Assembly (NCBI GenBank): GCA_037367355.1
Contig: CM074704.1
Location: forward strand, 682,001 to 746,000
From: Neoscytalidium dimidiatum
Lineage: Eukaryota > Ascomycota > Dothideomycetes > Botryosphaeriales > Botryosphaeriaceae
Reading direction: 5' to 3'
Length of the DNA: 64,000 nucleotides
Below the pieces are notes generated by a model. The model was given only the letters and a program-made list of their open reading frames with translations. It searched no databases and was not told the DNA's origin. Shown here piece after piece: positions 2,340 to 41,051 of the stretch. The position numbers and the translations under genes were made by a program. Every line of letters starts with the position of its first letter. Positions within the stretch are counted from its first letter, which is position 1.

Positions 2340-2848
2340 GAGATGCAGGTACGGGATCGAGGATGTGGGAGATGCTCAGATCAGCCGGCGCTGGATCAGA
2401 GCGAGTTTCAGCGCTGGCCAGGCCCGTGCGCGCGCGCGAAGCTTGTCGAGCTGCCAAGCGTCAGCCAGCTGCCGGCAAGACGTCAGCTGTCAGCAGCTCT
2501 TGTCGCGTCTCGCTTCCCCCCTGCAGTGAGCAGAGACACCTCCTATAATAGCAGTCGTCATGCCGCAGATTTCAGCACAACCTCTGCCGCACAATGCAAG
2601 CTCTCACACGAATCAATTGCCGCCGCCGCCGTCTCGTGGCGCGCCCGTGCTGCCGCGCTTCGCCAATTATTATTAATCGTGCGGGGTACACTGTGCCGGA
2701 GATAGCTGCATCTCCGCCGCCCTGTCATGACGTGCTGCCGCGCTCCCACTTTTCGACATCACGGTAACCCGCTACACTTCCCACTCAAAAAGTCTTCCTC
2801 CTCACCCAATTCCACAGCCACCTCAACCATTCCCGCCCGACATCCACA
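2340..2848. other. Intergenic, promoter of the aldo/keto reductase
   Basis: 509 bp, no gene. It contains a TATAATAG-like string near 2543 and a long C/T-rich leader just before the ATG (about 2770-2848), typical of well-expressed fungal genes. The start context CACAATGGC is good. Confidence 0.5.
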
Positions 2849-4143
2849 ATGGCCGTCCGCACTGCGTTCGATCCCAAGGACATGCCCTTCAGGCACCTGG
2901 GCCCCACCGGTCTGAAGGTCTCCGTCTTCTCGCTCGGCGGCTGGCTGACCTACGGCGGCACCCAGAAGGGCAACATCGTCAAGGAGTGTCTGCAGGCCGC
3001 ATGGGAGAACGGCATCAACTTCTTCGACACTGCCGAAGTCTACGCCAACGGGGAGTGCGAGATTGAGATGGGCCAGGCCCTGAAGGAGCTCGACTGGCCC
3101 AGGGACGAGTACGTCCTCTCCACCAAGGTATGTGCCCCGCAATCGTGCCCCGCCTTCTTCACTGACAACCACCCCCAAGGTCTTCTTTGGCACCGGCAGG
3201 AAAGAGCCCAACACGAGGGGCCTCTCGCGCAAGCACGTCGTCGAGGGCCTGAAGTCTTCCCTCGAGCGTCTGCAGCAGCCATACGTCGACATCGTCTTCG
3301 CACACAGGCCCGATGTTGGGTGAGCTCCCGCGTTTGCTCCCCCGATTTAGCCTGGTTGCTGACGGAATGTAGCACTCCGATGAAGGAGATCGTCGAGGGT
3401 TTCACCCAGGTCATTCGCAACCTGAACCTGGCGTACTACTGGGGTGCGTCCCTTTCCCCCCCTCCCCCCAATTCTCCGCCCAAATTTGCTAACGCACGCC
3501 AGGCACCTCCGAGTGGAGCGCCACCCAGATCACCGAGGCCACCCTGCTCGCCGAGAAGTACAACCTCATCGCCCCCGTCGCCGAGCAACCGCAGTACAAC
3601 GCCTTCCACCGCGAGCGCTTCGAGGTCGAGTACGACCCGCTGTACAAGCAGTTCGAGTACGGCACGACCATCTGGAGCCCGCTGGCCTCGGGCCTGCTGA
3701 CGGGAAAGTACAACGACGGCATCCCCGCCGACTCGCGCTTCGCCAACAACAAGGCCTTCTTCGAGGACACGGTCAAGAAGCTGCAGGAGCCCGAGGGCCG
3801 CGCCAAGATCGAGAAGGTCAAGAAGCTGACCGCCGTCGCCGAGCGCCTCGGCGGCACCCCGACCCAGCTCGCCCTCGCCTGGGCCGCCAAGAACCCCCAC
3901 GTCAGCACCGTCATCCTCGGCGCCACCAAGGTCGAGCAGATCCACGACAACTGCAAGGCCCTGAAGCTGCTGGACAAGCTGACCCCCGAGGTTCTGGACG
4001 AGATTGAGAAGATTCTGGATAACAAGCCCACCCCCAAGCCCACTTTCGGCCGGGACAGGTAGGTGTGAGTAGTTCTGGGGACCCATGGCGTCTGTGGAGC
4101 CAAGCGCTGACAAAGTCGCAGGTTGAGACAGGCGAAGCTCTAA
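2849..4143 (+). CDS. Aldo/keto reductase, voltage-gated K+ channel beta-subunit type
   Basis: 355 aa; NADPH-dependent carbonyl reductase of the AKR superfamily, closest in text to fungal Kv-beta-like proteins. Exons 2849..3127, 3180..3319, 3373..3443, 3503..4058 and 4122..4143; all introns are GT-AG, 52-63 nt. Seen: the [17 protein letters not shown] start of the TIM barrel, and the catalytic tetrad as D60 and Y65 ([12 protein letters not shown]), K93 (STK) and H135 (FAHRPD). The cofactor region [12 protein letters not shown] and the C-terminal [14 protein letters not shown] are conserved. The last exon is tiny and adds LRQAKL; its intron has a CTGAC branch site 18 bases before AG. Without that splice the frame would stop at 4062 with only those residues lost. 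The protein is probably cytosolic. The reducible substrate is unknown. Confidence 0.9.
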
Positions 4144-4622: not shown

Positions 4623-5415
4623 CTAAGTGTTCTTGGTGCAACTGGTATTCTTTGGATCTTTGGGCTCCTTTGCTTTCTTAATATTTTTTATATCCTTGAT
4701 CTTGGGGTCCTCGGTCTCCTTCATCTCAAACTCCTGCTCGCTCATCGTATGGTTTCGAGTCTTCTGCACCATCGCTAACACACCTTCCAGAATGGATGGG
4801 AAATCAGAATTGTTGAGCCTCCGGAGTTCACGGCCGAGATCGCTGCTCGCGTGGAAAGTGTCTTCCAGTTTCCTTCAGCTCTCTAGCTCCGTCTCCGTGA
4901 AGCTGTGGAACGGGAGTTGTTGCTTGCTAGCATTCAGATAATCGACACCCGCCTTGACTTGCTTGTACTCGAAGGTCGCGGTTCGAACATCCTCTTCCCA
5001 CTGCTGGCAGAAGACCGGGACGTCTGCAAGGACGTGGGGAATGTCGAAAGACTTTCTATCCGAGATCGCGACCGCCATGGGCTGCGCGTACTTCTGCGCT
5101 CACCTTTGCTAGCTCTGATCACTCAGGGATAGCGCGTGAGCCACCCACCCTCTTCTTCCTGTTCGTTTCCTCCTGCAGTCGCTGTTGTCGTTTCTTCTCA
5201 TCTTGGATTTGCCTTGCCAAGTTGTCGATTTGCTGTTTCTTATCATCGTGCTTTCTCTCTATCTTTTGTAATTTGTCTTTCGAGTTCAGACAACTTTCGT
5301 GTATCTCCACCGCTTGGCGTAGTGATAATGTATGTTGGTTTGGAAGGTTCACGAGGGTGCCACTAATAAGTGATGAAGGGTGGAGAGGTGAGAATCTGGG
5401 CTGAGGAAGCCGCAA
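4623..5415 (-). pseudogene. Coiled-coil family copy G, broken by a stop codon
   Basis: Last copy of the tandem coiled-coil family. Exon 1 (about 5415..5149) encodes a charged coiled coil ending in NRKKR. A 55-nt GT-AG intron (5148..5094) follows, then exon 2 begins KYAQPMAV, the same KKR|KY junction seen in copies B and E. The C-terminal motif is present as HSFTETELES, then an in-frame TGA at 4877-4875, then RKLEDTF in the same frame. It aligns without gaps to FTNEEISAFSELKDTM of copy E. Reading past the TGA the frame stays open to TAG at 4623, with a Lys/Glu-rich tail. No ATG lies in frame before the coiled coil; the frame opens just after a stop near 5425. Either a recent pseudogene or a truncated product. 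Function unknown. Confidence 0.5.
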
Positions 5416-5978
5416 TATATACTATAAGAATCACGCCACACTTCTTTAAAAAGTCAGGTGCTGTATCGTGCAATATGCAAGTCCCACCGCCCCTCCCGAA
5501 CTCGGACATTTCCCCACGTGTCTCGCAATAGAAGCACAATATCTTCACGGCTACCCATCAAAAGCGCGGTATAATGCTTTAAACAGGGACAGAAATTAAT
5601 CACAAGCTCTGCAGGCATCAAGCGTACACGTGCATATTGGCGCCAAAGCTTTTCAATTGTGGGGCTGTTCTACCGTACTCTAGCGTTCGCAGTTCTTTAC
5701 GGCGTTGTATGCCATTGACATGAACAGTTCCAGTGAAGCTTTAAGCGGATGATGATGGACTGTATAAACCCCGTAGACTCGTCTGATATCGTCTGATCTG
5801 TTGGAACTTTCAACCCAACACCAGCTTTCCAAATAGACTCCCTCCCAGCCAGGAAGTTCCCTCTATGTTTGGAAGCCCACAAGGCCCTTTACTTCACATC
5901 GCGATGACGGCCTCGGCGTGGTAAACGAGGACGGTTGTGGCACCTCTCGGAGTCTACTACACGGACGATGTTGCCGAC
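5416..5978. other. Spacer between coiled-coil copies G and F
   Basis: 563 bp with no recognisable coding. CACGTG occurs near 5514 and 5624. It would be the promoter of copy G if that copy is still expressed. Confidence 0.4.
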
Positions 5979-6543
5979 CTACTGGAGAATCTGAACCAGC
6001 TCCGAGGGGATATGAGATTGCTCAATTTCGTCCAAGACTTGGTCGAGGGCGTCAATCCTGTCCCCCTCTACTTTCAGGAGGACCTCCGGCTGATCAACCG
6101 TCTTCACCTGCTCTTCGGTGAGCTTGTCGTAGGGACGGGTGGAGGGCGACATGTTGTAGAAAGCCCTGAACTTGCCCTTGAGCTGGCGGTATAGAGCAAG
6201 CTTCCCGCCGACCCGGCGCTTCGTGGAGCGCTAGAGATCGCTAATAATGTCTAATAATATCATTGATGGCAATCGGCATGCCATAGAGAGAGCCGCGGTG
6301 CAAGGCGTCCTTCATGTACTCCTCAGATGTCTGCGCTCGGCCTCGCGTTAGCAGTGATAAGGTGGTCAGCAGGTGCGTGAAAGTTCTGCGTGCCCTCTTC
6401 TTGTACATCTTGAACTCGTCCGGCGCGAATTGCTTCTCGTCCGCGAGTTCGGCGCGAAGAGCGTTGAGTTCGACCTTCTTCTGCTTAATCATGTATTCGA
6501 TCTGCTTTTGCCTGACAGAGTCGATGCCGCCGTTAGTCGCCAT
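5979..6543 (-). pseudogene. Coiled-coil family copy F, broken
   Basis: ATG at 6543 begins MATNGGIDSVRQKQIEYMIK, a coiled-coil start like copy E. Exon 1 ends MYKKR at 6394. The intron is 6393..6331 (63 nt) with a good CTAAC branch, but its donor is GC, not GT; being stop-free and a multiple of three it would also read through. Exon 2 has EEYMKDAL and AINDIIRHY, then TAG (about 6243-6241). Next to it is a 10-bp direct duplication built on TAGCG that shifts the frame. After it the family text resumes: KRRVGGKLALY, then RPYDKLTEEQV, ending at TAG 5981-5979. Removing the duplication and the stop would restore gap-free alignment to copy E, so I call a pseudogene. The product may be a truncated 100-residue protein. 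Confidence 0.5.
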
Positions 6544-7131
6544 GTTTGCCAGGCGACCAGAATTTGTCGGTGGGGCGGTGGATGAGGTGAAGGCAGATTG
6601 TGCGACAGGTATTTTCTTTTGTTTTGCTGCTTGACTGCAACGCTGTATGCAGGGCCCTGTCCTAAAGAGGTAAGCATGACATCAGCGTACATATGTCTTC
6701 CCCTGTAACATTCAAAGAAGAACGCAATGCTGCAATAATTTCCTAGTCATTGCGCGCCATATAGGTACCGGAATGGTTTTGTTTTGAGCAGTTCTCCTAA
6801 GTCTGCCAATTCCTTTTCCTTCCCGTTAATCCAAGCAACTTTTCCCCCGGAGCACTTTCTGCTTAGAGATTCCATGCTAGTCAATGTCAGTCGAGAGTGC
6901 TTGGAGATCTATTACCTCCCGAGTTGCTCTGCGTCAGAAGTCCAGCAGATTAGGGCGGTCGGCAGGCTGCGCCGCTCCTCGAAAGCCAGACTCCAATCTC
7001 CGTTGCCATGAGAGATGATGTGTCTCAAAAACGCGATCAATCTGTTCCCGCATTTTTCAGGTCTTCCACTGAGCTCAGAAATACCCTCCCCATCCGCATA
7101 TATAGGACTATTATTGCCGTAGATCCTCTAC
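6544..7131. other. Spacer between coiled-coil copies F and E
   Basis: 588 bp holding the presumed promoter of copy F and the 3' end of copy E. No other coding signal seen. Confidence 0.4.
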
Positions 7132-7745
7132 TCATTTCTGGTGGGCGATCGAGGCTTCGTCACGGCTCATATTTGCCGTCATAGCGCCGCTGGCTTTCTG
7201 GGCCATACTGTCAATCCTCTTGTAGATTGATTGCAATTTCTGAATGTCTTCCGTGCCAACCTGGTCGATCTTCTTGCCGAGTGCATCTAATTTTTTGTGG
7301 TCGCTAGTCATAGTGTCCTTCAGCTCACTGAAAGCCGAGATTTCCTCGTTGGTGAATTGGTCGTAGGGAAGAGGTTTGGCCGCAAAGTTGAGTGCCTTAA
7401 TCTTGCTCTGTATCTTCTCGTACATGGTGAGATTCTCGGGTTGTCTCCTCCTCACGACACACTCGAAGTGATGGATCATAGTATGAATGTCTCTCGGAAG
7501 GTAGTTGTGGGAGTCCGGGCCCATTGGATGTCGCATATACTCGTCGTACTTCTGTGTTCACTTGGTCAACAGTGTCCCTCTAATGCTTTGTCTCTCTCTT
7601 GATTTACCCTCTTTTTCACGTTGGTCTCGAGCTTTTGGCGGATCCTCTCAGATCTGAGCTCTTCTTCAAGAACCAATAACTCCTGCTTCTTTTCTGCGAT
7701 CATTTCCTCGAGTTCCTTATGTTTGGTGGGTATGTTGGTCGCCAT
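7132..7745 (-). CDS. Coiled-coil family copy E, intact
   Basis: 185 aa; no family recognised. Exon 1 7745..7608 (46 codons) starts MATNIPTKHKELEEMIAEKK and is an amphipathic Glu/Lys/Leu coiled coil ending in NVKKR. The intron is 7607..7552 (56 nt, GTAAAT...ACAG). Exon 2 7551..7132 starts KYDEYMRHP, then YLPRDIHTMI, a basic stretch (VVRRRQ), MYEKIQSKIKALN, and the signature PYDQFTNEEISAFSELKDTM, ending in helices to TGA 7132. No signal peptide, membrane segment or catalytic motif is seen, so a cytosolic or nuclear helical protein that oligomerises through its N-terminus is the likeliest reading. It is the best-preserved member and the reference for aligning copies A, C, F and G. Function unknown. 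Confidence 0.62.
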
Positions 7746-8314
7746 TTTTCCGTATCCCTGGCCGTGAGATCTTTGCCAGTATATGAACTCAGGAGCCGCA
7801 GGAGAGTGGAATTTGGGTATTGATTGGTATTCAGTTCTGAGAAGAGCGAGAATGACTCTATAGTACGCATGACGATTAATATAGTCTCAACGTGTGTGAT
7901 TCAGGTCTGTGCACCTTCCACGTGAAAGGCCATGAGGAAACATCAGTGGTGAAGGAAATTTTGCAAAATTAGAAACTGCCTTTCGCCAAAAATAGAGCCG
8001 CCATACTAGCGCGCGCGATTAATGCATTGGGAGATAAAATATTCCAATAAGTGACTTTTCAACACAGTAACACCACCGATATCTTCGCTTTTTATCTCTT
8101 ACCCGGACTATCTGATCCAACTTTTTCGCCTCTCCCAACAGTAGAGGAGGATAAAGCTTCCCTATTACGCTCGCTTAGAAATCCGTTTGCTTCTTGAATC
8201 AATTCTCTCAACCCGCTAAAATACCCGGTGCTAAATCCGGATCTCTCTTAAGTTCCAAGACAACATTTACTAAAGGAATTCCTCCAGAATGGGCTGACAG
8301 GCCTATTAGGCCGC
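7746..8314. other. Spacer between coiled-coil copies E and D
   Basis: 569 bp. It carries the presumed promoter of copy E; a CACGTG lies near 7919. Some AT-rich sequence around 7960-8060. No gene seen. Confidence 0.4.
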
Positions 8315-9006
8315 TCACGACCGCCGCTCCTCTCCGAGCCTTTCCGCCATTCTGTCCAACATATCACGAATCGGCTCCAGCCCCGGCCTCTCCTTCCTCG
8401 CCAACTCCATGACCGCAATATAGCCCGCCTTGATGTACGCCTTTAACCGATCTAGTGCCTTGCGCTCCTCATCCGTAAAGTATAGCGGCGGCCTTCCCTC
8501 TCCGTCCATCTTACTATCCTCTGCGTCTCCAAGTTCGTCCTCCCCGTCGTCATCGCATTGAGTAACAGCAAAGGTCTTTCTCAGCCCTACAGACACCCTC
8601 TCGATCCCCAAATACGCCACCTGCCTCATATGCAGCAAGTTCACAGCATTGTAAAACACGTACGAATACTGCTGCAGCCGGCGAACCAGGAAATCTCTCG
8701 GATCATCTGCCACTCGGTCGTACTCCTCCAACATCTTCAATGCCTCCGCGTTAGCAGCGTGCTCTACAATACCACTAAAATCCAAAAGAAAAAAAAAAAA
8801 AGAGGGAAACAAACCTGCTGCAGCTTCTCGCACAATGGCTGCTGCTGCTCTTCTTCCAATGCATTAAGCTCTTTCTCCAGAACAGCAAGTTCGCTGCGTT
8901 TCTGCCTGATTTGCACTTCAAGAGAAGCGCGCCGTTGTTCTTGCGTCAACTGTTGTGTTTCAGGACCCGCATGCTGCGGACGGGGCGTAGGGGTCACCGT
9001 TGGCAT
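8315..9006 (-). CDS. Coiled-coil family copy D, intact
   Basis: 203 aa. Exon 1 9006..8815 (64 codons): a Pro/Thr-rich start MPTVTPTPRPQHAG, then the coiled coil RRASLEVQIRQKRSELAVLE. The intron is 8814..8735 (80 nt) with a long T-tract; the acceptor ATTGAAG| was chosen because it keeps phase 0 and gives QQ|MLEEYDRV, equivalent to KKR|KYDEYM in copy E. Exon 2 8734..8315 contains PRDFLVRRLQQYSYVFY, an acidic insert, and the family signature LYFTDEERKALDRLKAYI, ending GEERRS at TGA 8315. No membrane or catalytic motif. It differs from copy E by the acidic insert (QCDDDGEDELGD) and the longer N-terminus. Function unknown; the structure is well supported by paralogy. Confidence 0.6.
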
Positions 9007-9498
9007 GGTTCTATGGATAGCTGGTGGCTTGGCTCTGGTAAGATCGACTAAAGGAGTTGTATGATGGAGGATATGATATCGATATCTGCTGGTATAAGTA
9101 AGGTTCCGGTATAGCTCGCTGCGCCCGATTGTGTTAACGGTTAGACAGGACCGGAATTGTTTTGGATCATCACTGGATAAGAGCCTCGGAGCGGTCAATG
9201 GTGGCTGGTACTGGGCAGGAATGTGTTGAATGATCATCGCCTACTTCGATCTGATTTTAGAGCTCTCCAGTGCCTCTCCTGCTCCTTAAGTGAAGTGGAA
9301 GAATCATCAAAATGCAGTTACTGCATCTTCCCAGACTGTTCACGCTGAAGTGCAAGAAATGCATGAAACTCCGAATGCTAACCTTGCCCCATCGTTTCCA
9401 AACTTCAGTTTTAACCTGTTTGGCCCTCCAACCGCAAATGGCAAACCGACAGTAGTTCCCGCACGTTCTCCCCTGTAGTATCCTCTCATGTCGAAAAG
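9007..9498. other. Spacer between coiled-coil copies D and C
   Basis: 492 bp with the presumed promoter of copy D. No other coding signal. Confidence 0.4.
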
Positions 9499-10364
9499 TC
9501 ATGGTGCTCCATCAAGCTCGCGCGCAACTTCATTCCTTCCGAGCGCTATGATCCTCGTTCTCCATTTCCGGTTTGACCGCATGGACGCAATCCTATCTTG
9601 CATCCACGCGAGCGCCGCGTCGTTCAGCCGGAAAATGGCGTGCATATCCGTCCTCAAGCACCCGTACAGCTGCTCGAAGGCACCGATTTCCCTTCCGGAG
9701 AACCGCTCGAACGGGACCCGCATCTTCCGCCGCGGGTGACCACGCTTCCGTTCCTGCCGTTGCTGCTGCCGAGCCGCGGGAGACGACGACGATGACGACG
9801 ACGACGACGACGACGACGCCGCCGCCGCTGCCGCATCCCGCAGCTTCTGCAGATCTGCCCGCACGGCCTCGAACCATTCGCGCCTCCCGCGCACGGCGTT
9901 CGGCACGCGCTCAAGCTGGCTGATAACGTGCTCGAGTTCGTCCAGCAGGCGCGCGCTGCGGCCGCCATCGGCGCGGCTAGCCGGGTTGAGGAGTACTCGT
10001 CGAACTTCTGCGCTCGCCATGTCAGCTCAGTTCCCACCACCGTATCAGAGAATTTTAGGAAGGGTTTTGCTGTGATGGATTCGAACGGACCCGCTTCTTG
10101 CGCTTCGTCTCCTCCATCTCCTCCAACTGCAGCTGCCGTGAGGGTTCGAGAGCTTGCTTGAGCTCGTTGATTTCCTTTTTCTTCTGCTCGATCTGCGCCT
10201 CGATCGAGCTTTGCGAAAAGGACAGCGGAGTAGGGTCGGACGCGCGGCGCTTTGTGGTGGTCGGAGGAGGGGTTGGTGAGGCGGACGGTGTCGTCGGCTG
10301 TCATAGTTGCAGGCGGGAAGGGAGGAGGTGTGGAGGGATCGTGAGGCTCTTCGTCTAGGTCCAT
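9499..10364 (-). pseudogene. Coiled-coil family copy C, frameshifted
   Basis: The ATG at 10364 (MDLDEEPHDPSTPPP) opens a frame that differs from the coiled-coil frame. The family text IEAQIEQKKKEINELKQALE up to TKRKKR (exon end 10091) lies one base over and has no in-frame ATG of its own. The intron 10090..10008 (83 nt) leads to KFDEYSSTR, matching KYDEYM of copy E. The rest (RLLDELEHVISQL, then VPFERFSGREIGAFEQLYG) continues in yet another frame, to the stop at 9499. So two frame breaks separate conserved blocks. A poly-Ser tract, coded by a GAC/GAT-type repeat on the plus strand near 9785-9825, splits the C-terminal half. An alternative donor could rescue the second break but would lose KFDEY. 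Pseudogene, or a locus with sequence errors. Confidence 0.42.
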
Positions 10365-11020
10365 GGTTACTTGATGAGGGGGCTACTTGCTATGTTTGCT
10401 TGAAGATCGAAGCGAAGTTGTTGCTTTGAGGTTTCTTGGTTGGGGTTGCGAGGTAGGTGAAGCGGTGAACGGCGATGTTGAAGAAAAACGCGAACTGGAC
10501 TTCCTATTGCCAAATATGAGCACGAGAGGTTCACATGTGACATTGTGCCGAATTCAATCAATTCAAAAAAAGATTTGTGAGAAGCTGTTTTGAGGCCCCA
10601 TGAACCCCGGACGTGTGTTGAGCTTCTGTCCTTTGACGATCCCGCTCGCTTTTTCCCAACTATCCTCTCCTTTTTCTTCTTGATTGAACGAAGATGCCCT
10701 CATCCGTCTCTGAAAGCCTCTAAAACCCTTTTCTTATCTGGGGATCCCTGAAGACTCAAAAGAAGCCTCAATACTACTAATATCCCAACTCTAATATGAG
10801 CTGTGCCTGGGTCAAATGACAATCCGTATCCGTTTTGATTCCCGTCTCAGCATATGTCTCAATGTTCTGATTTCTTGAACATTTCGAACGCTGTGCATGT
10901 TTTCGCCTTCGATCATTATCTTTGAAGAGCGAATTACTGAGGGTTTTCATTCCACTCCATTCTGAAAGAGCTACTCCGCCAAGTGTCTCGTTGAGGCAGG
11001 CGGCGTATTGAGTAAACGCT
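10365..11020. other. Spacer between coiled-coil copies C and B
   Basis: 656 bp. It would hold the promoter of copy C. No supportable gene or RNA seen. Confidence 0.4.
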
Positions 11021-11626
11021 TTAGGAGATCTCCACTACTTCAAGGCTTGAACTATTCTGAGGCTTTGGCCGCGCTTTTTCCACGAAGGCATGGATTCGAT
11101 CACGCAGCGATATAAGCCCCAAAGCTCGGAGTGCGGCGATGGCTTTTCTCTCTTTCTCTAGGCGAACTCGTAATTCGCCTAGAGCGTCGACTTCATCATG
11201 AGTGACTTGCTCGAAATGAAGACAGTAGCTGCTGGAGGTGATAAGCAGCGCCTTATTGATGTCTTCGTATATTTTCTGGATGTTGTCGATGTCAGACTTT
11301 AGGAAATCGAGGTCGAAGAGGATATTGTTCAGGTTTGAGGATAGGCTGATCCTGCGCATGTTGCAGGCGGGTTGGCCCATCGCTTCATCGTATTTCTTCA
11401 GTCCACTGTTAGCAGAAGCCTCATCTATATATAGTGAGCTGCGTACCCTCTTCTTTTTCTCACATTCATGTTGCTCCTTCAAGTGAAGTAAGTCTTTGAG
11501 GTGCTTGACTTTGTCCTCTGCCTGCTTGAGCTGCTCCCGGACTTCGTCGGACGTTGCATTTTCAAGGTTAAGCTCATTGAGGTCGCCAGCTGATCTCTGT
11601 GTAGATGCAGGTGTCATTTTTGGCAT
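11021..11626 (-). CDS. Coiled-coil family copy B, intact
   Basis: 184 aa if spliced. Exon 1 11626..11447 (60 codons) begins MPKMTPASTQRSAGDLNELN, followed by the coiled coil SDEVREQLKQAEDKVKHLKD and ECEKKKR. The intron 11446..11396 (51 nt, GTACGC...TGAAG) was placed to give KKR|KYDEAMGQ, phase 0, as in copies E and G. Exon 2 11395..11021 carries the C-terminal signature FEQVTHDEVDALGELRVRL and a basic tail. The intron is stop-free and divisible by three, so retention would give an otherwise identical 201-aa protein. No signal peptide, membrane span or known catalytic motif. One of three intact copies; function unknown. Confidence 0.6.
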   Translation of the reverse strand: MPKMTPASTQRSAGDLNELNLENATSDEVREQLKQAEDKVKHLKDLLHLKEQHECEKKKRVRSSLYIDEASANSGLKKYDEAMGQPACNMRRISLSSNLNNILFDLDFLKSDIDNIQKIYEDINKALLITSSSYCLHFEQVTHDEVDALGELRVRLEKERKAIAALRALGLISLRDRIHAFVEKARPKPQNSSSLEVVEIS

Positions 11627-12245
11627 CTTGTACGTGGGTTGTGTGGTTTGGAGCTGAAGGTGGTGAAGTGTGTTGCGTGAACAGATTGTAAGTCATAAGA
11701 TCATTGGCACCTTGCATCTGCATCTTCCAATGGACAGAGTTACGCACTTTGGACCACAGTTCTGAGTCTAATCTACAGAAGAATTTTCTCGGGAATGCTC
11801 TTAGCAAACTGCCATATTACTAGTACTTATGCACTCAAGGCCTATGCACGGCAATCATGGAGAACGCCGCTGTTCACTAGCATAAAGATCATGGATTTAG
11901 CAAGATAGTTATTAATTCTTCCCAGGAGCTAGTCTTGGATCTCTACCAGAGATTTATCCACAATTATGTCATTGTGCTACGCCTCTGAGGTAGTGATTAA
12001 ACCCGTTTTGAAGCCTGAATCCTACAGCCAATTTTGTAGGAATCATTATCCTATCTTCCGCATTCAATTTTCCCGCCATCATGGCCGATAGCCTGTAGCT
12101 CTGAACGTTGACAGCTTGACTTCACTTCCATTGCAGTCCAATTATGTGGGCTCAGCCAATGAAGTCCCACCGTATTCAGGCGTGATTCCGGCGCCTGCTC
12201 TAGGCCGAGAGGCTGTTGAATAAAATCGACCTTTCCGTTGTCTCC
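11627..12245. other. Spacer between coiled-coil copies B and A
   Basis: About 620 bp with the presumed promoter of copy B. No gene seen. Confidence 0.4.
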
Positions 12246-12803
12246 TTACTTCCTGTGGGAGATCAACCTGTCCCGCATGGCACAGGTTTTGATGTAGACT
12301 GAGTGCAATTCTTGACCAGGCGGCGCATTTCCGAACGAGTCAAGAAGCCAAAGGTCATGTGTGACCAGACTCACGAGTTCGCCCAGTAACCTGTCATCAT
12401 CCTTAGTGAAATGGTCGGGTGGTATCTTCGAGGAACTGTGGTCATCTCGTGCAGCGTGTTATAGACAGAATTGAAAATTCCACGCTTCTGGGCAACGGTT
12501 CCATTCAAGAGCTCGTAGAGGCGACAATCCAGGAATTCGAGACTGGCTGCTGTGCCGTCATTTGGCTCAGCCTCCAATGCGATCCACCTCTGTACTCACT
12601 TGTCAGCAACTAATGTCTACTAAGAATCATTGACCTCTTACCTGCTTGTTCTCCTTCGCTTTTACAATGCGTAGAGCTTCCTTCAGTCGCTGGATTTCTT
12701 TTCCGGTGTGGGAGAGCCTTAGTTCGTCTCGCTTGTAATCGCGTTCCTTCGCTTCGATCTGCTTCACCCGATCTTCCTTCGGAATGTTTGTGTCATAGGT
12801 CAT
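12246..12803 (-). pseudogene. Coiled-coil family copy A, frameshifted C-terminus
   Basis: ATG 12803 begins MTYDTNIPKEDRVKQIEAKE, a coiled coil like copy E (shared TNIPK). Exon 1 ends KENKQ at 12642; the intron 12641..12590 is 52 nt (GTAAGA...ACAG). Exon 2 starts RWIALE and runs to a stop at 12371. Near 12418-12424 the family text jumps frame: the next frame reads PDHFTKDDDRLLGELVSLV, which matches the FTNEEISAFSELKDT signature, and stays open to TAA at 12248-12246. As read, the product (126 aa) would lack the conserved C-terminal helices. A second ATG 36 bases upstream is out of frame and gives only a 13-codon reading. Pseudogene, or an indel error in the sequence. Confidence 0.48.
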
Positions 12804-14014: not shown

Positions 14015-15073
14015 TCACGCCTTCGCCCCGTTCCCCTCCTCCCCCCGCTCCCTCCTCCTCGCCAACAGCTCTTCCGGCGGGGGCAGCACATCTGGGCCAA
14101 ACGACATGGGCAACAGCTCCCCCATCGTCATGACCTTGTACTCGCCCGCACTCGTATGCATGAAAATCGGGGTATCCAACTGCCGAATTATCCCGCATCA
14201 GCCTCTTTCTTTCGCCTCTTCATCCCCAGGAGAGGGAAAAAAAAAACAAAAAAAAAAGCCACTTTCGACCCTCCCTTCCTCCCTCCCTCCCCTCCCCCCA
14301 AATACCCCAGCTCGTGGGATACCATGCCGCGAGCGGAAAGCACGCACGACAAAATTAAAAAAAAAAAAAAAAAGAAGAAGAGGAAACGAGCTCACCTCCA
14401 GGAACTCCCTCAAAAACTGCCTGCACATGCCGCAAGGGCTGCAAAACGCGTCGGGCAGGTCCGTCGCCACGCCGACGGCCTTGAAGTCGCCGCGGCCGTA
14501 GCCGAACGTCGTCACCGCGGTGCCGACGGCGACGCGCTCGGCGCACGTGCCGACGGGGTATGCGGCGTTCTCGACGTTGGCGCCGAGGATGATTCGGGGG
14601 GCGTCGCCTGTGGAGGGCGGCGGCGGCGGCGGCGGGGATGTGGAGGAGGAGGAGGATGCGGATGAGGATGAGGATGAGGATGCGGATGACGACGAAGGGC
14701 GGATCAGGAGGGCGGCGCCGACGCGGAATTGGGAGTAGGGGCCTGTGATGGCGAGTGCGCTGGTTAGCTTGGTGGGGAAGGTTGGGTTCTCGAAGAGGAG
14801 GAGGAGAAGGTGGAGGAGGAGGTGAGGAGTGCGACGCGTGCGCGCGTGCGCACACGCCTCTCGATGCGGGATTGGAGTTGCGCGCACGTACTCCGCGACG
14901 TCCTCCCCGCGCCTCTCTACCTCTAGAGCTCTGTTATGGGAGACAAGGAAGCAGGTGCAGTACGTACAGTACGCGCGCCCCCGCGCCTCCAGCGCGCCCT
15001 TGGACAGCGCGTCGACCTCCCTCAGCGTGAGTCCATGGATGAGGTCGCCCTTGTTCTGTTCAGCCGCCGGCAT
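14015..15073 (-). CDS. CDD1: Cytidine deaminase
   Basis: 205 aa; zinc enzyme of pyrimidine salvage that deaminates cytidine and deoxycytidine to uridine forms in the cytosol. Exons 15073..14968, 14742..14396 and 14179..14015; introns of 225 and 216 nt, long for this locus but both GT-AG. The first splice rebuilds AYC|PYSQFRVGAALL. Seen: ANVENAAYPVGTCAER, with zinc-ligand C102 and catalytic E104, and SPCGMCRQ with C139 and C142. The C-terminus (LDTPIFMHTSAGEYKVMTMG, then LLPMSFGP) is the usual fungal ending plus a basic tail. Odd: a 32-residue Ser/Ala then Pro tract (residues 51-82) sits between the first strand block and the active-site helix; it is coded by CATCCT-like and CCG repeats. The enzyme identity is firm. 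Confidence 0.92.
14603..14698 (-). repeat. Ser/Pro low-complexity insert inside cytidine deaminase
   Basis: On the plus strand this is a (GGC)n block followed by GAGGAT-like repeats. In frame it encodes poly-Ser/Ala and then seven prolines. The length is a multiple of three (96 nt), so the reading frame is kept. It is probably a loop insertion generated by repeat expansion. Confidence 0.7.
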
Positions 15074-15369
15074 CGTGAGAGGGAAAAAGGGAAAAAGAAG
15101 GAAAGAAGGAAGGGAAGAGAGAAAGGAACGGAGCGAGCGGGTTGCGCGGAGAGAGAGAGAGGGGATACACTGCGTGATTGGCGTCAACGGTGCGCCGTAT
15201 GTGGGGATGAAGGCAGGAGATAAGCAGGAGATAAAGGAGCTTCCCCGGCCGGCCTGCGCGAATGGCGTGCGTCGGTGGCCGGACTGGCGGGGCTCGCCTG
15301 GGTTACCATTTGCGGGTTGGTTTATGGTGGAAGAGTGGCATCGACTTGCGGGTTGGGGGATAGCGGCTG

Positions 15370-18300
15370 CACGTGTGGGGAAGGTGGATGACGCGGGTCG
15401 TTGGTTTTGACTGCGGGGCACGGTGCTTGCGTGACGTTGGTGAGGTACGTCTGCGGTTTGCGAGGACGAAGCTCTGAGCTTCGTCGGAAACTTTCTGAGC
15501 GTTTTGATTTTCAGCGTGACAGTTTGCAGTCTGCCTAGGCAGTTGCCTGCATGATTCGCTCATCACTTCTCTTGAGGTTAGAACGACAATAATTGCCGTC
15601 AGAGCCACACACGAAGTTCCTTGGCATTCCCCGGCCGTGGCAAGTGAGGGCTCGCCAAGCAAAAGTCAACGGTGATCACGGATGAAGATTTCCAGGCGGC
15701 ATTTGACCTCGAGCAACGGAAATCGACATCAGCCTTCCAGCGGCGTTTGAACGAGTGGCCAGCATGTTCTCTCCATGACTCCTTAGCCCTGCAGAGCCTC
15801 AGCCAGACGGACGAACACCCGCTCCTCGTATTGCACCCTGCGCATTGCCCCCGACGATCCCCAGGGCGCGAGCATCGGGCGGGTCGACCACCTGTCGCGT
15901 GGCCAAGACGAAGAGGAGTAAGGATGGTTGCCAAGGACGCAGAACCGTAAACTCTAAACCACGTCGATCCCCACGCGGCCGGCGATGACGCAACGGACAT
16001 GTGCGATCAGGGTCGACGGCGTCATCAACCCTTCCCACTACCAGCAATTTTTCCCTCCCTCCTTTGCCATTAATCTCTCACTGATCTGCAATTCCCTCTC
16101 ATATCATCCCGCTCGGGGAACCGGGAAACACAAAAAGTTTGTCATCCCTGTTCCACGTTGCCTCCCAACCTTGAGCAGCGAGGGGAGGAAAACCGTGGGC
16201 GGAAAAGGCAAGGGAAAGTTAAGTGACTCGCACACGCGTTCCGCGCAGCCGCTGCAGAAAAGGATGGAAAGCAGCGAAAGGGAAGAGTGGGAAGCGAGAT
16301 CGACGTAACGAGCAAGAAAGAGACAAAGAAAGAAAGAGGGAACGACATGACGGCAGGTAAGGTTTGGAGCCAATCAATCCCCAGCGAGGACCCCGAACAT
16401 CATCATCGAATCCGCCCGCCCACCGAACCCAACGGGCAAGACAATCATACACATGCATCCTCATCTCTCTCCCTGACTTGCCTACTTTTCCAGACTGCAT
16501 GGCTCATTGATTTGCATGCCGCTCCTTCGCACGTGCGAATGCAATCGTCTGCCCGCACAAAAGTCCCTCCCTGCCCGCGTGCTCGCGTCCCCCTAGCCAT
16601 GGCAGCGGGCGAAAAAAAAGAACCTGCTGCTGCGGGCTGATATGCACATCGCTCGAAAGGGTCGTCGATTCAACACTTGCTTTTTCTGCAAATCTCGGTC
16701 GCCAATCTCTCCCCGTTGGCTCAATCGCTGGATCCTGCCTTTATCATGCTGTGCCTGCTCTTTTTTTTTTTTTTTTGCCCAAAAGTGCGCATATGAATGC
16801 GATTGTCGATCTGCAGGAGGGGCAAGTAGTGAGCGTATAGCAGCGAGGTCTCCTCTCATCTTGCGAAGAGGGGAAAAAGCGGCGAGGAGTGGCGTTTCCC
16901 GGTAGAGAGGACAGCCAACAGGATTGCACCGCTGTGCAAGGGATCATGGCTGGGAAAAGGCAAAAAAAAAATAAAAAAAGCAAAGATGAGAAGGAATTCT
17001 CCGTCTGCGGCTGGTACGTATATGGCCTGTATGTAGTCTGTACGTATGCTTGCATATATGCGCATGACAGAGGGGATCGCTCCGCTCTCAGGGCCTCCTC
17101 GCACGTGAGATCAGCAGCAGCAGCAGCATCGACGGGCGACGACGACGACGACGACAATTACCGATAGACGGATGAGACAGACAGCCTTGCAGCGTACCCT
17201 GCAGCAGTGGACGCATCATCAACTTTCCTCCTCGGGAATCGCCAAGAGCATCTTCGTCGTCTTTTCATCTGCCATCACCGGCATGACCGAACTTCACCGG
17301 TAGGGCCATCAACGCGGCGAATGCAGCAGCAGCAGCAGCAGCAGCAGTAGTTCATCCGTCCGTCCGTTCGGACTTTTGTTTGCTGGGTTGACCCTCGTCC
17401 CATGGTCGTCGCCGCACGTGCCTATGTCGCAACAGCCGCATACTTATTGTTTTATTTCCTTCCCTCGGCAACGCGGCTTTTTTTTTTTTTCCTCTTAGAT
17501 GGATGCAACGTCGGATCACCCAGACACCAAGCCTAGCGGAAAAACGGCGCACGGCATTCCCGCGGGGCCCGCTCCGCCTCGGGAAGGGGGGAGGGTCAAA
17601 AGGCGATAAGACCTAGAGAGAAAAGAATTAAGGTTCCGGGGAACGGAGAACTTGGCCTCAACCGCTCCGTTTAATTTCTTTGCCGATGAAGAAGGGGAGC
17701 GTCGATTGGTATAGTACGTATGTAGGTTATTTCCGTCCTACACGAGGACGCTGCACGGTTTACGTGCGTTTGGTCGGCGAGGAAAAAAGTACGCACGATA
17801 GTAGGTGCACCCCGTCGATGGTAAGGTTGCGAAAACGGGCGTCAAACCCTTCTGAGGAAAGTCGCCGCCGCGGCGCAATGGAGGAGGGACCTCACGGGAG
17901 AGAGCCGCAGTTACACCCTAACTGCCAGATACGAGATACTTCCGGCCAGCATTAAATTCTCCGTTGCCGGAGGAAGAGCAATAAGGCGTACGTGTAGCTA
18001 TGATGTGATTTGCCGTGGCGTTAAGGGCGGGCTGAAACAGAAATGGGCTACGGACGCAGGAGACGGGCACGACGGGTACGGCCGCAAAAAACCCTAACGG
18101 CAGACCGATTGAGGGTAGAGGCGAAATGAAAATGAAAAAAAAAGTATAATCCGCGGAGCATCATCCCCAAAACACGTCCCCCGAGTCCTTCTTCCATACT
18201 GGCAGAAAGCCGGGGCCCGACCGAACGGATTGTAGTTGCAGCAGAGCAAGCAGAAGCTAGGGGCACGTGTCTTGTCTGTGTGGGGCCATGTGCTTCTCGG

Positions 18301-31107: not shown

Positions 31108-32099
31108 ATGAAACTTTTTGTATATTTCTCAGCGGCGGTGAGCCTATTCAGATGCTACTCATTTGCTTATAGTACAGAAGACCGGGTCATTTCACTCACC
31201 AATCAACGGTATAACGGTACCACTGAGGTCGAGTTCACTTCGCAAGCTCTTGGTCAGCTTGATTTCTTCAAACTTGATCCAGCCCCTAATTCCACCACCT
31301 TTGACTCGTAAGCCTCCCCCTGCCCCCAAAACCCACTCTAAGACCGCCGTTCGTAAATCTGAGATTCATTAGTTGGTATTTCGACGCGATCAATCCATCG
31401 ACGAACGAGACCATCGTTTTCAACTTCGAGATCCAGTGGCCGGTCGACAACGGGGTCGCTCTAGCGGAAACCCTCTATCGCGTTTCCATATTCGGCTCGT
31501 TCGCAAACGGCACGGCCTTCAGCTACGGAGTCGATGCGGAGAACGTCAACATCACCGAAAGGGCGGACAAGAGCATGCTGGTCGAGTTCTTCGGCCGCAA
31601 CGAGTTCAGCTGGTCCGGGTCGAGCCTGCTGGAGCCAAGGCCGGTCTACAACGTGACCATCAACTCGCCCGAGCTCGGCATCACGGGGAGCCTGGTCCTC
31701 CGAGGCAACGTATGTGGTCCACACACACACATACACACACCCCGTGTCCCCAAACACATCAACTTGCAGAACCATTTTCCTTTCCCTTCACCACTGACGC
31801 ATTCTTTTAAACCCCCCCACAGCTCGCCGCGCCACACTTCTCCTGCGGCACCGACGCGGCCGGCGTGGAGGAGCGCATCATCCCCGGCGTCGCCTGGGCC
31901 AACGCGGTGCCAGACGCCAACGCGAGCGTCGCGCTCCGCTTCGCCGACGGCACGACCGTGGCGTTCGACGGCGGCTACGGCTACCACGACAAGACGTGGG
32001 TGGACCGGCCGTTCGAGACGGCGCTGCAGTCGGCCTTCTGGGGCCACGCGCGCGTCGGGCCCTACGCCGCGGTGTGGTGGCGCGCGCGCGCGCGCGCAG

Positions 32100-32133
<34 letters not shown>

Positions 32134-32474
32134 TGGACGTCAGCTCCGAGTACCTCGCGCGGTGGGCGGACGGGCTGGTGGTCGCGTCGCGGTGCGTCGT
32201 CGGCGCCGCTGCGAGCGACAACAACACGCCGGGCTGGGGCGAGGGGCAGGCCTGGCCGCTGCTGCCCGGGGCTCCGGCGCCCGCGGGCATGGCGCTGCGG
32301 TGGGACTTGGGCGACGCCGGCGTGTTCGTCGCCAACGTCACGAGCGAGGACGTGTTCGTCGAGATCCCGTTCTGGATGGCCGGGAGGGGCCCGGTTGTCG
32401 GGGGGTTCGAGGGCGGGGAGGTCTACACGGATGAGCTGGGCTTGTGGTCGCTGAATCAGCTGCAGCCGCTGTGA
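31108..32474 (+). CDS. Secreted CrtC/AttH-like (Diels-Alderase-type) protein, frame broken
   Basis: Exons 31108..31307, 31373..31709 and 31823..32474; introns of 65 nt and 113 nt (the latter holding a CA repeat). About 395 aa if the break is ignored. The N-terminus MKLFVYFSAAVSLFRCYSFA looks like a signal peptide, and several NxS/T sites occur (NGTT, NETI, NGTA, NVTI). The body matches the lipocalin-like hydroxyneurosporene-synthase/AttH fold used by fungal Diels-Alderases: PGVAWANAVPDANASV, GGYGYHDKTW, AFWGHARVGPYAAVWW, then EYLARWADGLVVASR and the C-terminal GEVYTDELGLWSLNQL. Odd: the frame of the first half (through VWW) and that of the second half (from poly-Gly11 on) differ by one base, with the switch inside a (CG)n tract at 32080-32098. 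That fits loss of one CG unit. No other biosynthetic gene is adjacent, so the substrate is unknown. Confidence 0.72.
32080..32132 (+). repeat. (CG)n and (GGC)11 microsatellites at a frame break
   Basis: A CG dinucleotide run is followed directly by eleven GGC triplets. Upstream coding is in one frame and downstream coding in another; a change of one CG unit (2 nt) would restore continuity. Confidence 0.75.
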
Positions 32475-37825: not shown

Positions 37826-40800
37826 ATGGTGAATACCCCCGAGTTGGGAAATGTTTCTGATTGGAAAGAATATGGGGAATTTCACCTCCTGAAATCAGCG
37901 ATAAGTCCCCATGACCTCGCGTAAGCCCAACTTCAGAGTATATCGTAACGTCCTACGCAGTACATTGGCTGACACCACGAGAACCAACAGGATCATTGCT
38001 GTCCTAGGATTGCCTGGTGACAAGGACAGCGATTTGCCGACTGACTCTGGTTCCTCGTGGTTGAAAAATTTGCTGCCCCAAGACCTCACGTCTGGTTGTA
38101 GCATTTCCTCGTTTTCCTGGAAGCCGGACCGCGAGAAAACCGGATTTAAAGGTGCTGCCAAATGTCTTCAAAACAAAATCCGGCAAAAATTGAGGAGTCA
38201 CAATAAATCTTTCTGGCTCATAGTCTCGGAGGGATTGTGGCCAAAGACGTAATGCAATCTTGAGTAATTCATTGGATACACGTTTGGCTCATAACTCGGA
38301 ATTCTAGGCGCTTGCCAATAACGTCGATATCAGAAAAAATACCACTGGAGTACTGTTCTTTGGTCAGTATATCTGTTCTCTCAGTAAAGGTACATAACCA
38401 TGTTGTTGACCTTTTGCAGGTACTCCGCATCACGAACTCCCATGACTACTCAGGACGCGGAAAAGGTTCTACGAAAAACCTACTTTCAAGAAGTGAATGA
38501 GCACTTCTATCACATTGCGCCTCAGTTCCGCATAGTTTCATTCTACGAAACTGTACCTTCTAGAGACCTTACACCAGCTCGCGTCGTTGTCTCTCCTCAC
38601 AATGCCACACTCAACCTCCCGAATGAAGTCTCGATCGCAAGTCCCTTCGACCATCAAAACCTTTTCGAGTTCAATTCAGAATACGACGAAGGTTACGATA
38701 TAGTCATTGGTTCCATACACGGCATGAATCCCCACATCGAGTGGCCTACATTATGCCGTCCAGAAAGGTTTGGGCCGAAGAAAGGTCATTCCCCAAGACT
38801 CAATTATGAGTCAGAGTTAGACTTTGATGATGAAATGTTTTTCTATCTTGTCACCGAGCATGGGCTCGTCGGAGAGCCGAGGAGGTCTGTGGCCGTGTTT
38901 CAGGCTGAAAATCCGGTCGCCTTTGCACTGAAAGGATCCTCAGATCCACCTGACAAGGCAGACATAAAATGCTCTTGGACCCATATTCCGGCTAATTGCA
39001 CAATCTGGATTCATGTAAGGCCCTATAGGAAAGGCTACAGATACTTCTGATTTGGTGCTAATACTTACCAGCCTTGCCTCAAGAGCATTTCAGAAGAAGC
39101 CGGGTTTGATCTGAAAATCACTTCGTCACAATTCTGGCGCTCTCTTCAACGAAACTCCACAGCACTGGCGTCACATGCGAGATTTATATTTCCATCATCA
39201 CAGGTGATAAGTGGTGAGTCGAAAAACCCCACACTGCCTGATACTCGATGGAATCAATGCGCAGTATACGTAAGCTTAAATTACCACGCAACAGGAAAGC
39301 CTGCATACTGACAGTTTGCATGAACAGCTTCCATACCTGCATTGGGACAGCTTCAAAAGCTTTCAGAGACGAGCAGAAGAGCTTAAAGAGGTGATGGGTA
39401 AGCGGGGAAGCGGCAAAAACGATGTCTTAAATCGAAGAGGGACTCATATGGGCCCCTTTTTCCATGCCCGTCGCAGCTTGGATCAGTATTTCTACACGGC
39501 ACTTAACGACACGAGCGCAAGAGACGCAGACCAACTTATCATGAAACGGTCTGGCCGTAAGCTCCCACTCAAAGACCAAAAAATGATCATGGTGGACCAA
39601 TTATGGTTGTGGATTCTAGACCAGGACGATTGCGATACCAATCATGATGTCACTCCAACTATTCTCACTAGCTTCGAACCGAGGACCCCGGAAGAGAGCA
39701 CGGACACATTCCAATGGACAGCTGATCTGTATCAGGATATCAAGAATGAGATTGGTAGATTACCTTCCAGATATTCTGATAGGTACCAACTGGCAGAGCT
39801 GGTTATTAGAAGGACTGTCAACGTCATGCTGGATGTAAAGGTAGAATCCCTGGACTTTCTGGAAATTTTTCACCAAGAAATTGGAAAACTTGTAAGCTAT
39901 CCGATTCCATTCGTTTTCTTACTGTACGAAAATGGCTTATAATATGCTTTTCGATCATAAAAGGCAGATCATCAGGCTCAGCATTTCAGAGCTTTCCAGA
40001 ATGACCTCTCTCGTACCCCTGATCAAACCCTCGGCACCATGGAAAGGCGGTTTGAGATAGAGTGGTTGGCAGCGGATATGATGGATGAGTTGAATATGCT
40101 CAGGGGCGTATTTGAAACACAGCGCGACATACTGATTACCTTCAGTCGAAAAATTGGCCAGAACGGAACGGGCAAAAAGTCAAATCCATCCCTTGCAAAT
40201 TTTGCCGAAGCCCTTAAGACCATTGCAAAAGAGGATATTTCTGGACATCTTGAGCATGTGGACAGGTTGATGAAAAGCGTGAAAAGAGTGCATCAGGCGG
40301 TATGATTGACACCATGACCCAAGTCAATCGTCTCACATCGGCTGACTTGTTCATTTATTACAGTTTCTGCGCCTCCTAGGCCTTCAACAAACAGAAGCAA
40401 ATCTTCAAGAATTGCAAAACTCTAACGAGCAAGCAAGGTTAGTCATAGGATTGTACAAGGAAAACCACGAACAATTCCAAACCACTAACGAGATTTCCAG
40501 AATGACGCAACGGCAGGCTGAGCAAACTAGCCGACAAGCTGATCAGACCCAAAGACAATCAATTGTCATTCTCCTCTTCACCGTCGTGACGGTCATATTT
40601 GTAAGACTTTCCCTAGAGACTTGTGTAAAGTTGGTTTCCCCTAAACATTTAATAGACCCCCCTGTCTTTCTTCACTTCATACTATGGCATGAACGTCGTC
40701 AGCTTTACTGGAGAAAGCGGGAACCAGAGCTTGACGTATGTTTGGACTGTAATGGGCCCCGCATCCGTGGGGATAATCGCCGCGCTCTTTTCTGCGGCAT

Positions 40801-41051
40801 ATCTCCTTTATCTGCGTGCAGGCAGAGGCTTTCACCACTCTCGATCCGAATTCAAGCCAGGATCTTCGGAGAGTGTTGGTCAACAAGGGAAACCCCAATC
40901 TGACTTAGAACGGGGTCACATAAGATGCGCTAGCTGCCAAGGTGCTGGGGGATGGTCTACATCGACCCACGATCAAACAGCGGGCGATTCTAGAACCAGC
41001 TCTGGACCTCCTATGCAGCTACTACAACTTCCTAGAGGAAGAGAACTTTAA
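37826..41051 (+). CDS. SERAC1-like alpha/beta-hydrolase fused to a CorA-like membrane domain, two frame breaks
   Basis: Exons 37826..37920, 37991..38248, 38308..38362, 38420..39014, 39072..39269, 39328..39891, 39964..40299, 40364..40600 and 40656..41051; introns 57-74 nt. N-terminal half: RIIAVLGLPGD-like strand, SSWLKNLLPQDL, the nucleophile elbow LAHSLGG (38213-38233), IVAKD|ALANNVDIRKNTTGVLFFGTPH, FYETVPSRDL, DHQNLFEF: text typical of SERAC1/SesB-like lipases. The middle has CSWTHIPANCTIWIH. The C-terminal half has RRSLDQYFYTALNDTSARD, KMIMVDQLWLWILDQDD, long helices, then SIVILLFTVVTVIF|TPLSFFTSYYGMN with the CorA Gly-Met-Asn signature (40686-40694) and a second span VGIIAALFSAAYLLYL. One base is missing just before LAHSLGG (38200-38212) and another in CTCCC near 38440, so only the CorA half is intact from ATG 38443. 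Membrane protein; role unknown. Confidence 0.7.

Follow-up and report, generated by a model that had tools for sequence, protein, structure and literature searches.

A tandem array of divergent two-exon genes and gene relics, apparently of an undescribed family, in Neoscytalidium dimidiatum

The wtf genes of fission yeast form a tandem birth-and-death family whose products are membrane proteins, and effector families often duplicate as well. The locus described here, from Neoscytalidium dimidiatum, consists of a tandem array of related two-exon units, seven in number (A to G), all on the minus strand inside positions 12803-4626 of a stretch of 64,000 nucleotides (hereafter the window; C10:682001-746000 within a fungal genome of 43.76 Mb in 40 contigs). 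The units are regularly spaced and share one gene structure, they are homologous to one another, although only marginally so in the case of D, and several of them carry lesions. Counting an eighth relative, H, which lies outside the window, three units qualify as genes and four as relics, and one relative is doubtful. In the parts available of the literature surveyed, studies of gene families in the Botryosphaeriaceae deal mainly with secreted enzymes, effectors and metabolite clusters.

Organisation of the array and state of its copies

From A to G, the ends of successive first exons are separated by 1195, 1356, 1276, 1207, 1214 and 1245 bp, in agreement with the tandem spacing of the original prediction. 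Start-to-start distances range from 1177 to 1326 bp, the points used for C (10300, directly after a stop codon) and G (5280) having been chosen by hand, as neither is a start codon. The design is common to the array, with a first exon that encodes a charged helix and a second exon that is modelled as all-helical. Between the two, a phase-0, intron-like interval of 51-83 nt is found at the identical junction point in all seven copies, together with the junction strings that had been quoted for it; its ends are GT...AG in six copies and GC...AG in F. The last ~10 bases of this interval are alike in A, C, E, F and G (ends at 12590, 10008, 7552, 6331 and 5094, respectively; for instance GTGAGTACAG, GCGAGCGCAG and GTGAACACAG) beyond what the splice consensus requires, and B and D have in common a different ending.

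Complete gene models exist only for B, D and E, in each of which an in-frame ATG is present, the intron at the shared point is of the GT-AG type, and the second exon stays open for 124-139 codons. Gene B spans 11024-11626 (exon 1 11626-11447, intron 11446-11396, exon 2 11395-11024) and gene E spans 7135-7745 (exon 1 7745-7608, intron 7607-7552, exon 2 7551-7135), the intron of the latter giving no match to a simple branch-site pattern. Gene D, the weakest member by sequence, spans 8318-9006 (exon 1 9006-8815, intron 8814-8735, exon 2 8734-8318), and its start is uncertain because the frame stays open further upstream. The other four of the seven copies are broken or incomplete, so the seven genes originally proposed stand as seven same-strand related units, not as seven intact genes. 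In copy A, a first exon of 54 amino acids encoding a charged helix (12642-12803) precedes a broken second exon (12249-12589), whose pieces, 12589-12437 and 12437-12249, lie in different frames. Copy F (5982-6543) comprises exon 1 at 6543-6394, a GC-starting intron at 6393-6331 and exon 2 pieces at 6330-6244 and 6230-5982; besides the GC donor it has a stop, and the frame changes between the two pieces. For A and for F, one single-intron GT model each can be drawn, without a branch-site match. Copy G (4626-5280) has no in-frame ATG, and its helix segment (5280-5149) was chosen by hand inside a frame open from 5421; this segment is followed by an intron at 5148-5094 and by exon 2 pieces at 5093-4878 and 4874-4626, which are split by a TGA inside the C-terminal motif described below. 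Copy C (9502-10300) consists of a helix segment without an in-frame ATG (10300-10091) and an exon 2 frame with an Ala/Ser run (9993-9502). In this copy the shared junction runs into a different frame, while exon 2 stays open in 10 alternative single-intron GT models. In relative H, GT is absent from the shared intron point, and three single-intron GT models with other donors exist for it; neither C nor H, then, fits the shared gene model. A (GAC)n run at 9782-9823, within copy C, forms part of its Ser-rich linker when read on the opposite strand.

Codon usage, expressed as z relative to four reference frames, resembles that of coding sequence in E (2.6; exon 2 4.4), F (4.3 and 3.8), G (1.9-3.2) and H (4.5), and is weaker in A (1.4-1.8), B (exon 1 1.0; 2.5), C (2.6 and 1.7) and D (0.0 and 1.8). 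Since the codon usage of F and G still looks coding, their breaks may be recent, and sequencing error may also account for frame breaks in the copies. Repeat-induced point mutation (RIP) was rejected as the cause of decay, as both indices measured over copies A-G (TA/AT 0.34-0.74; (CA+TG)/(AC+GT) 1.12-1.57) fall outside the usual RIP ranges. A recent segmental duplication was likewise rejected: among 28 pairs of upstream stretches, a single one exceeds a z of 2.5, over 15 nt (z 2.8, reached by 1 of 60 shuffles).

Homology among the copies and their predicted fold

The relationship between copies was assessed by Smith-Waterman comparison of exon 2 peptides over the 21 pairs of A-G, with 500 shuffles per pair. 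Exon 2 of E scores against F with a z of 17.0, against B and G with 8.8 each, against A with 6.5 and against C with 5.2, values that no shuffle attained. Lower scores are given by E-D (z 3.3, reached by 6 of 500 shuffles) and by the B-C, B-G, C-G and F-G pairs (z 2.8-3.6, reached by 3-7 of 500). All in all, 10 of the 21 pairs are reached by at most seven shuffles; each of the remaining 11 is reached by at least 31. A leave-one-out profile test was also run, in which 2540 open reading frames (ORFs) from 104 kb were ranked once the ORFs used for training, and one more piece of F, had been taken out. In this test, seven of the eight members rank first, with E-values of 1.3e-14 (E), 3.4e-8 (B), 1.2e-5 (H), 5e-4 (F), 0.053 (G), 0.17 (C) and 0.2 (A); D ranks third (3.3), below an unrelated ORF at 1.3. 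Profile-profile comparison (hhalign) of E, B and H combined with single copies gives probabilities of 18 for C, 5 for A and 1.2 for D, the last out of register. On these sequence scores, E, B, F and H are clearly homologous, A, C and G less clearly so and D only marginally. Homology between copies, whose absence would have undone the original proposal, is thus found overall, with D doubtful; this copy is kept in the family mainly for its gene structure, position and motif, more than for its sequence score. In amino-acid identity, B and D reach only ~23% to E, and the order of elements is nonetheless the same.

These comparisons would be hard to reconcile with unrelated helical ORFs that are alike by composition, an explanation we consider highly improbable: charged helices easily resemble one another, just over half of the pairs are matched by shuffles at the rate given above and the motif is common in shuffles, but the E-F, E-B and E-G scores, the best leave-one-out E-values and the common intron site and spacing speak against it. 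Composition is accordingly disfavoured as the source of likeness for E, F, B, G and H, and could apply to D.

A structure prediction for E, which the original prediction had called for, was run on exon 2 with AlphaFold2 (nine sequences) and returned helices only, at a modest mean predicted local distance difference test score (pLDDT) of 62.9 and a predicted template modelling score (pTM) of 0.41. The model of B exon 2 (eight sequences; pLDDT 80.6, pTM 0.56) places helices at residues 9-54, 66-91 and 94-108. The F-T-x-E-E signature that had been noted near the C-terminus is present in the copies, and in both models the T of the F/V-T motif directly precedes the first residue of a helix. In its strict capping form (T/S as N-cap, E at N3, hydrophobic residues at N' and N4) it occurs in five of the eight members, A, D and F failing; this is presumably a textbook capping box with a hydrophobic staple. 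Because it fits a generic motif of helix starts, the signature can recur without marking a family, and indeed its loose form is present in 38-69% of shuffled exon 2 peptides and its strict form in 3-19%. The signature is therefore not diagnostic of a family. The low-complexity insertions just before it differ, being Ala/Ser in C and acidic in D, as would be expected of a loop.

The N-terminal coiled coil of the original prediction has an uneven signal. Heptad periodicity in exon 1 is clear in B and G (score reached by 4 and 2 of 1000 shuffles, respectively), marginal in C (43) and indistinct in A, D, E, F and H (165-761), so that a coiled coil is plausible, although its signal does not stand out in every copy. 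On hydropathy alone, used here as a proxy, none of the six exon 1 peptides scored contains a hydrophobic N-terminal segment (the highest mean over 12 residues is 0.46), and no membrane-like segment appears by hydropathy in the five exon 2 peptides scored. The proteins are predicted to be helical and to lack both signal and membrane segments. Cysteines number at most two per peptide in the same five exon 2 peptides.

Relatives in the genome and in databases, and neighbouring genes

Genome-wide searches, made as a loose and intron-blind first pass that may have missed more distant copies elsewhere, stay close to the array. With E as query, all five matching candidates lie within it, namely its own two exons, F (E-value 0.013), B (0.017) and G (0.53). 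With B, the three candidates that match are its own two exons and H (0.0025). This eighth relative, closest to B, lies on the plus strand, opposite to that of the array, at C10:657813-658457 (match to B 657849-658358). It precedes the window by ~23.5 kb, and 28 kb separate it from the array. The array holds the seven units proposed, and one further relative exists outside the window. Exon 2 of H matches itself and B, the larger piece of F matches itself and E, the first exon 2 piece of G matches itself only, and D and C return self-matches plus others that were read as compositional. A profile of all eight found no further member over the 104 kb around the array except the other piece of F, the best unrelated ORF having an E-value of 2.3.

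The original remark that no named family was known with this pattern agrees with the database searches. For B, D and E, every Pfam match stays below the cut-off of its family (best E-value 0.023), and HET, NACHT and HeLo domains are not listed for these three at E-values up to 10. In a set of 5.8 billion proteins, full-length E gave 62 candidates and a nine-row exon 2 alignment gave 5040, none of them at an E-value up to 10; the set was searched with full-length E and with this alignment, not with full-length B or D singly. As a control of coverage, the phosphodiesterase encoded at 51997-53367 has 7530 matches in the same set, with, among the 120 matches listed and after a leading one at 83%, Botryosphaeria dothidea at 85%, Neofusicoccum parvum at 84%, Macrophomina phaseolina at 83%, Diplodia intermedia at 82% and Lasiodiplodia at 81%, which indicates that the set holds members of the Botryosphaeriaceae and places the window within this family or close beside it. 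By our estimate, an annotated ortholog at ~40% identity or more should have been detected, while unannotated or more diverged ones would be missed. Given that a conserved neighbour finds this fungal family at 81-85% and the array finds no relatives, the array family is fast-evolving or lineage-restricted. When PDB sequences were searched with the second exons of B, D and E, eight distinct ones matched at E-values up to 10 (best 0.0025), and the best matches, helices of viral fusion proteins, were read as compositional. The words 'coiled', 'tandem' and 'orphan' have no occurrence in the main texts of PMC13403568, PMC8905617 and PMC8336260, as far as these were available. By the literature, Pfam and 5.8-billion-protein searches, the family is apparently undescribed.

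The array is flanked by an aldo/keto reductase (2768-4062) on one side and by a cytidine deaminase frame (14201-15559) on the other, and the domain scan also placed a 2-oxoglutarate (2OG) oxygenase nearby (1410-2336). Between H and the array are a Zn2Cys6 regulator, an MFS transporter, an EthD-domain frame and an S15 peptidase. No NOD-like receptor (NLR) or HET domain is listed among the 30 frames scanned (Pfam, E-values up to 0.001). Elsewhere in the window, an open frame at 31305-32471 has an AsqO-like, Diels-Alderase-type domain and is possibly an enzyme of secondary metabolism, and three successive long plus-strand frames without a Pfam match occupy an AT-richer stretch (38388-40900), appearing NLR-like or lipase-like by eye only.

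Explanations weighed and known systems compared

The explanation favoured here, with confidence that is about evenly balanced, is that the array encodes lineage-restricted, fast-evolving, small intracellular all-helical proteins, which undergo tandem birth and death and act as an interaction module. Exon 1 would contribute a charged, probably self-associating helix, through which the proteins may oligomerise, and exon 2 a long helix that leads through a variable linker into a helical hairpin, with the capped F/V/L-T-x-E-E turn at the start of the hairpin's first arm. The family would have grown by tandem duplication of a unit of ~1.25 kb, leaving H now on the opposite strand and 28 kb off, and turnover would have left three complete copies, four broken or incomplete ones and one doubtful. 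Birth and death, already suggested in the original prediction, is supported by the coexistence of complete and broken or incomplete copies at even spacing. As to a working role, the proteins might titrate or recognise a changing, hypothetical intracellular partner. Weighing against this explanation are the marginal homology of D (z 3.3, third rank when left out, hhalign probability 1.2), the exon 1 heptad signal, which in five of the eight peptides does not rise above shuffles, and the weak codon usage of B exon 1 (z 1.0), D (0.0, 1.8) and A (1.4-1.8).

A strong and serious rival, although one considered clearly less probable, is neutral decay, in which a once-useful family is drifting, B, D and E are the copies not yet broken and divergence reflects relaxed constraint. 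The breakage or incompleteness of four of the seven array copies, the failure to find relatives among 5.8 billion proteins and the weak codon bias of B and D (z -0.0 to 2.5) are all consistent with it; however, three models remain complete, with GT-AG introns and long open second exons, and the element order of B and D is conserved in spite of their low identity to E. A role in recognition or genetic conflict, of the allorecognition, anti-mobile-element or selfish meiotic-drive type, in which divergence and copy turnover would be selected, is judged unlikely; the selection for recognition, self/non-self or effector functions that the original prediction suggested gains no support from the analysis. 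By analogy only, it might be suggested by the presence of array turnover and extreme divergence in one window with a gene 81-85% conserved in the Botryosphaeriaceae, but NACHT, HET and other incompatibility domains are not listed for B, D and E, and a killer/antidote structure is not visible. In a version still less probable, the array would form an intracellular recognition or conflict system of the Botryosphaeriaceae that is so far undescribed, made up of self-associating helical proteins; the surface of linker and hairpin would track a changing partner, and the capped hairpin and helix would stay conserved. Plant-directed secreted effectors are very improbable: the fungus belongs to a family described as plant-associated in the sources partly available, and duplication is frequent among effectors, but the exon 1 peptides scored lack a hydrophobic N-terminal segment (by hydropathy only), which makes a classical secreted effector unlikely, and cysteines are few in the exon 2 peptides scored.

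With this locus, a plant-associated family of fungi gains a gene family that is apparently undescribed, and proof of a recognition role, were it to come, would offer a handle on non-self or conflict biology in the Botryosphaeriaceae. The array is compact and has neighbours of known domains on both sides, so copy number and selection could be read directly across existing genomes of this family.

Regarding known structures, prefoldins are helical hairpins, and the prefoldin alpha subunit 2zdi gives a weak profile match (positions 24-119, E-value 1.1). This match is no better than chance, and strands are absent from both exon 2 models (B and E). The generic helix N-cap agrees with five of the eight members in its T/S cap, the E at N3 and the hydrophobic residues at N' and N4, but it is a local motif of unrelated proteins that defines no family, and A, D and F miss its strict form. 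The wtf genes differ in encoding membrane proteins, whereas the five exon 2 peptides scored here lack a membrane-like segment. The likeness to this lineage-specific tandem birth-and-death class, which is one of general class, lies in the tandem copies, the mixture of intact and broken members, the high divergence and the restricted distribution.

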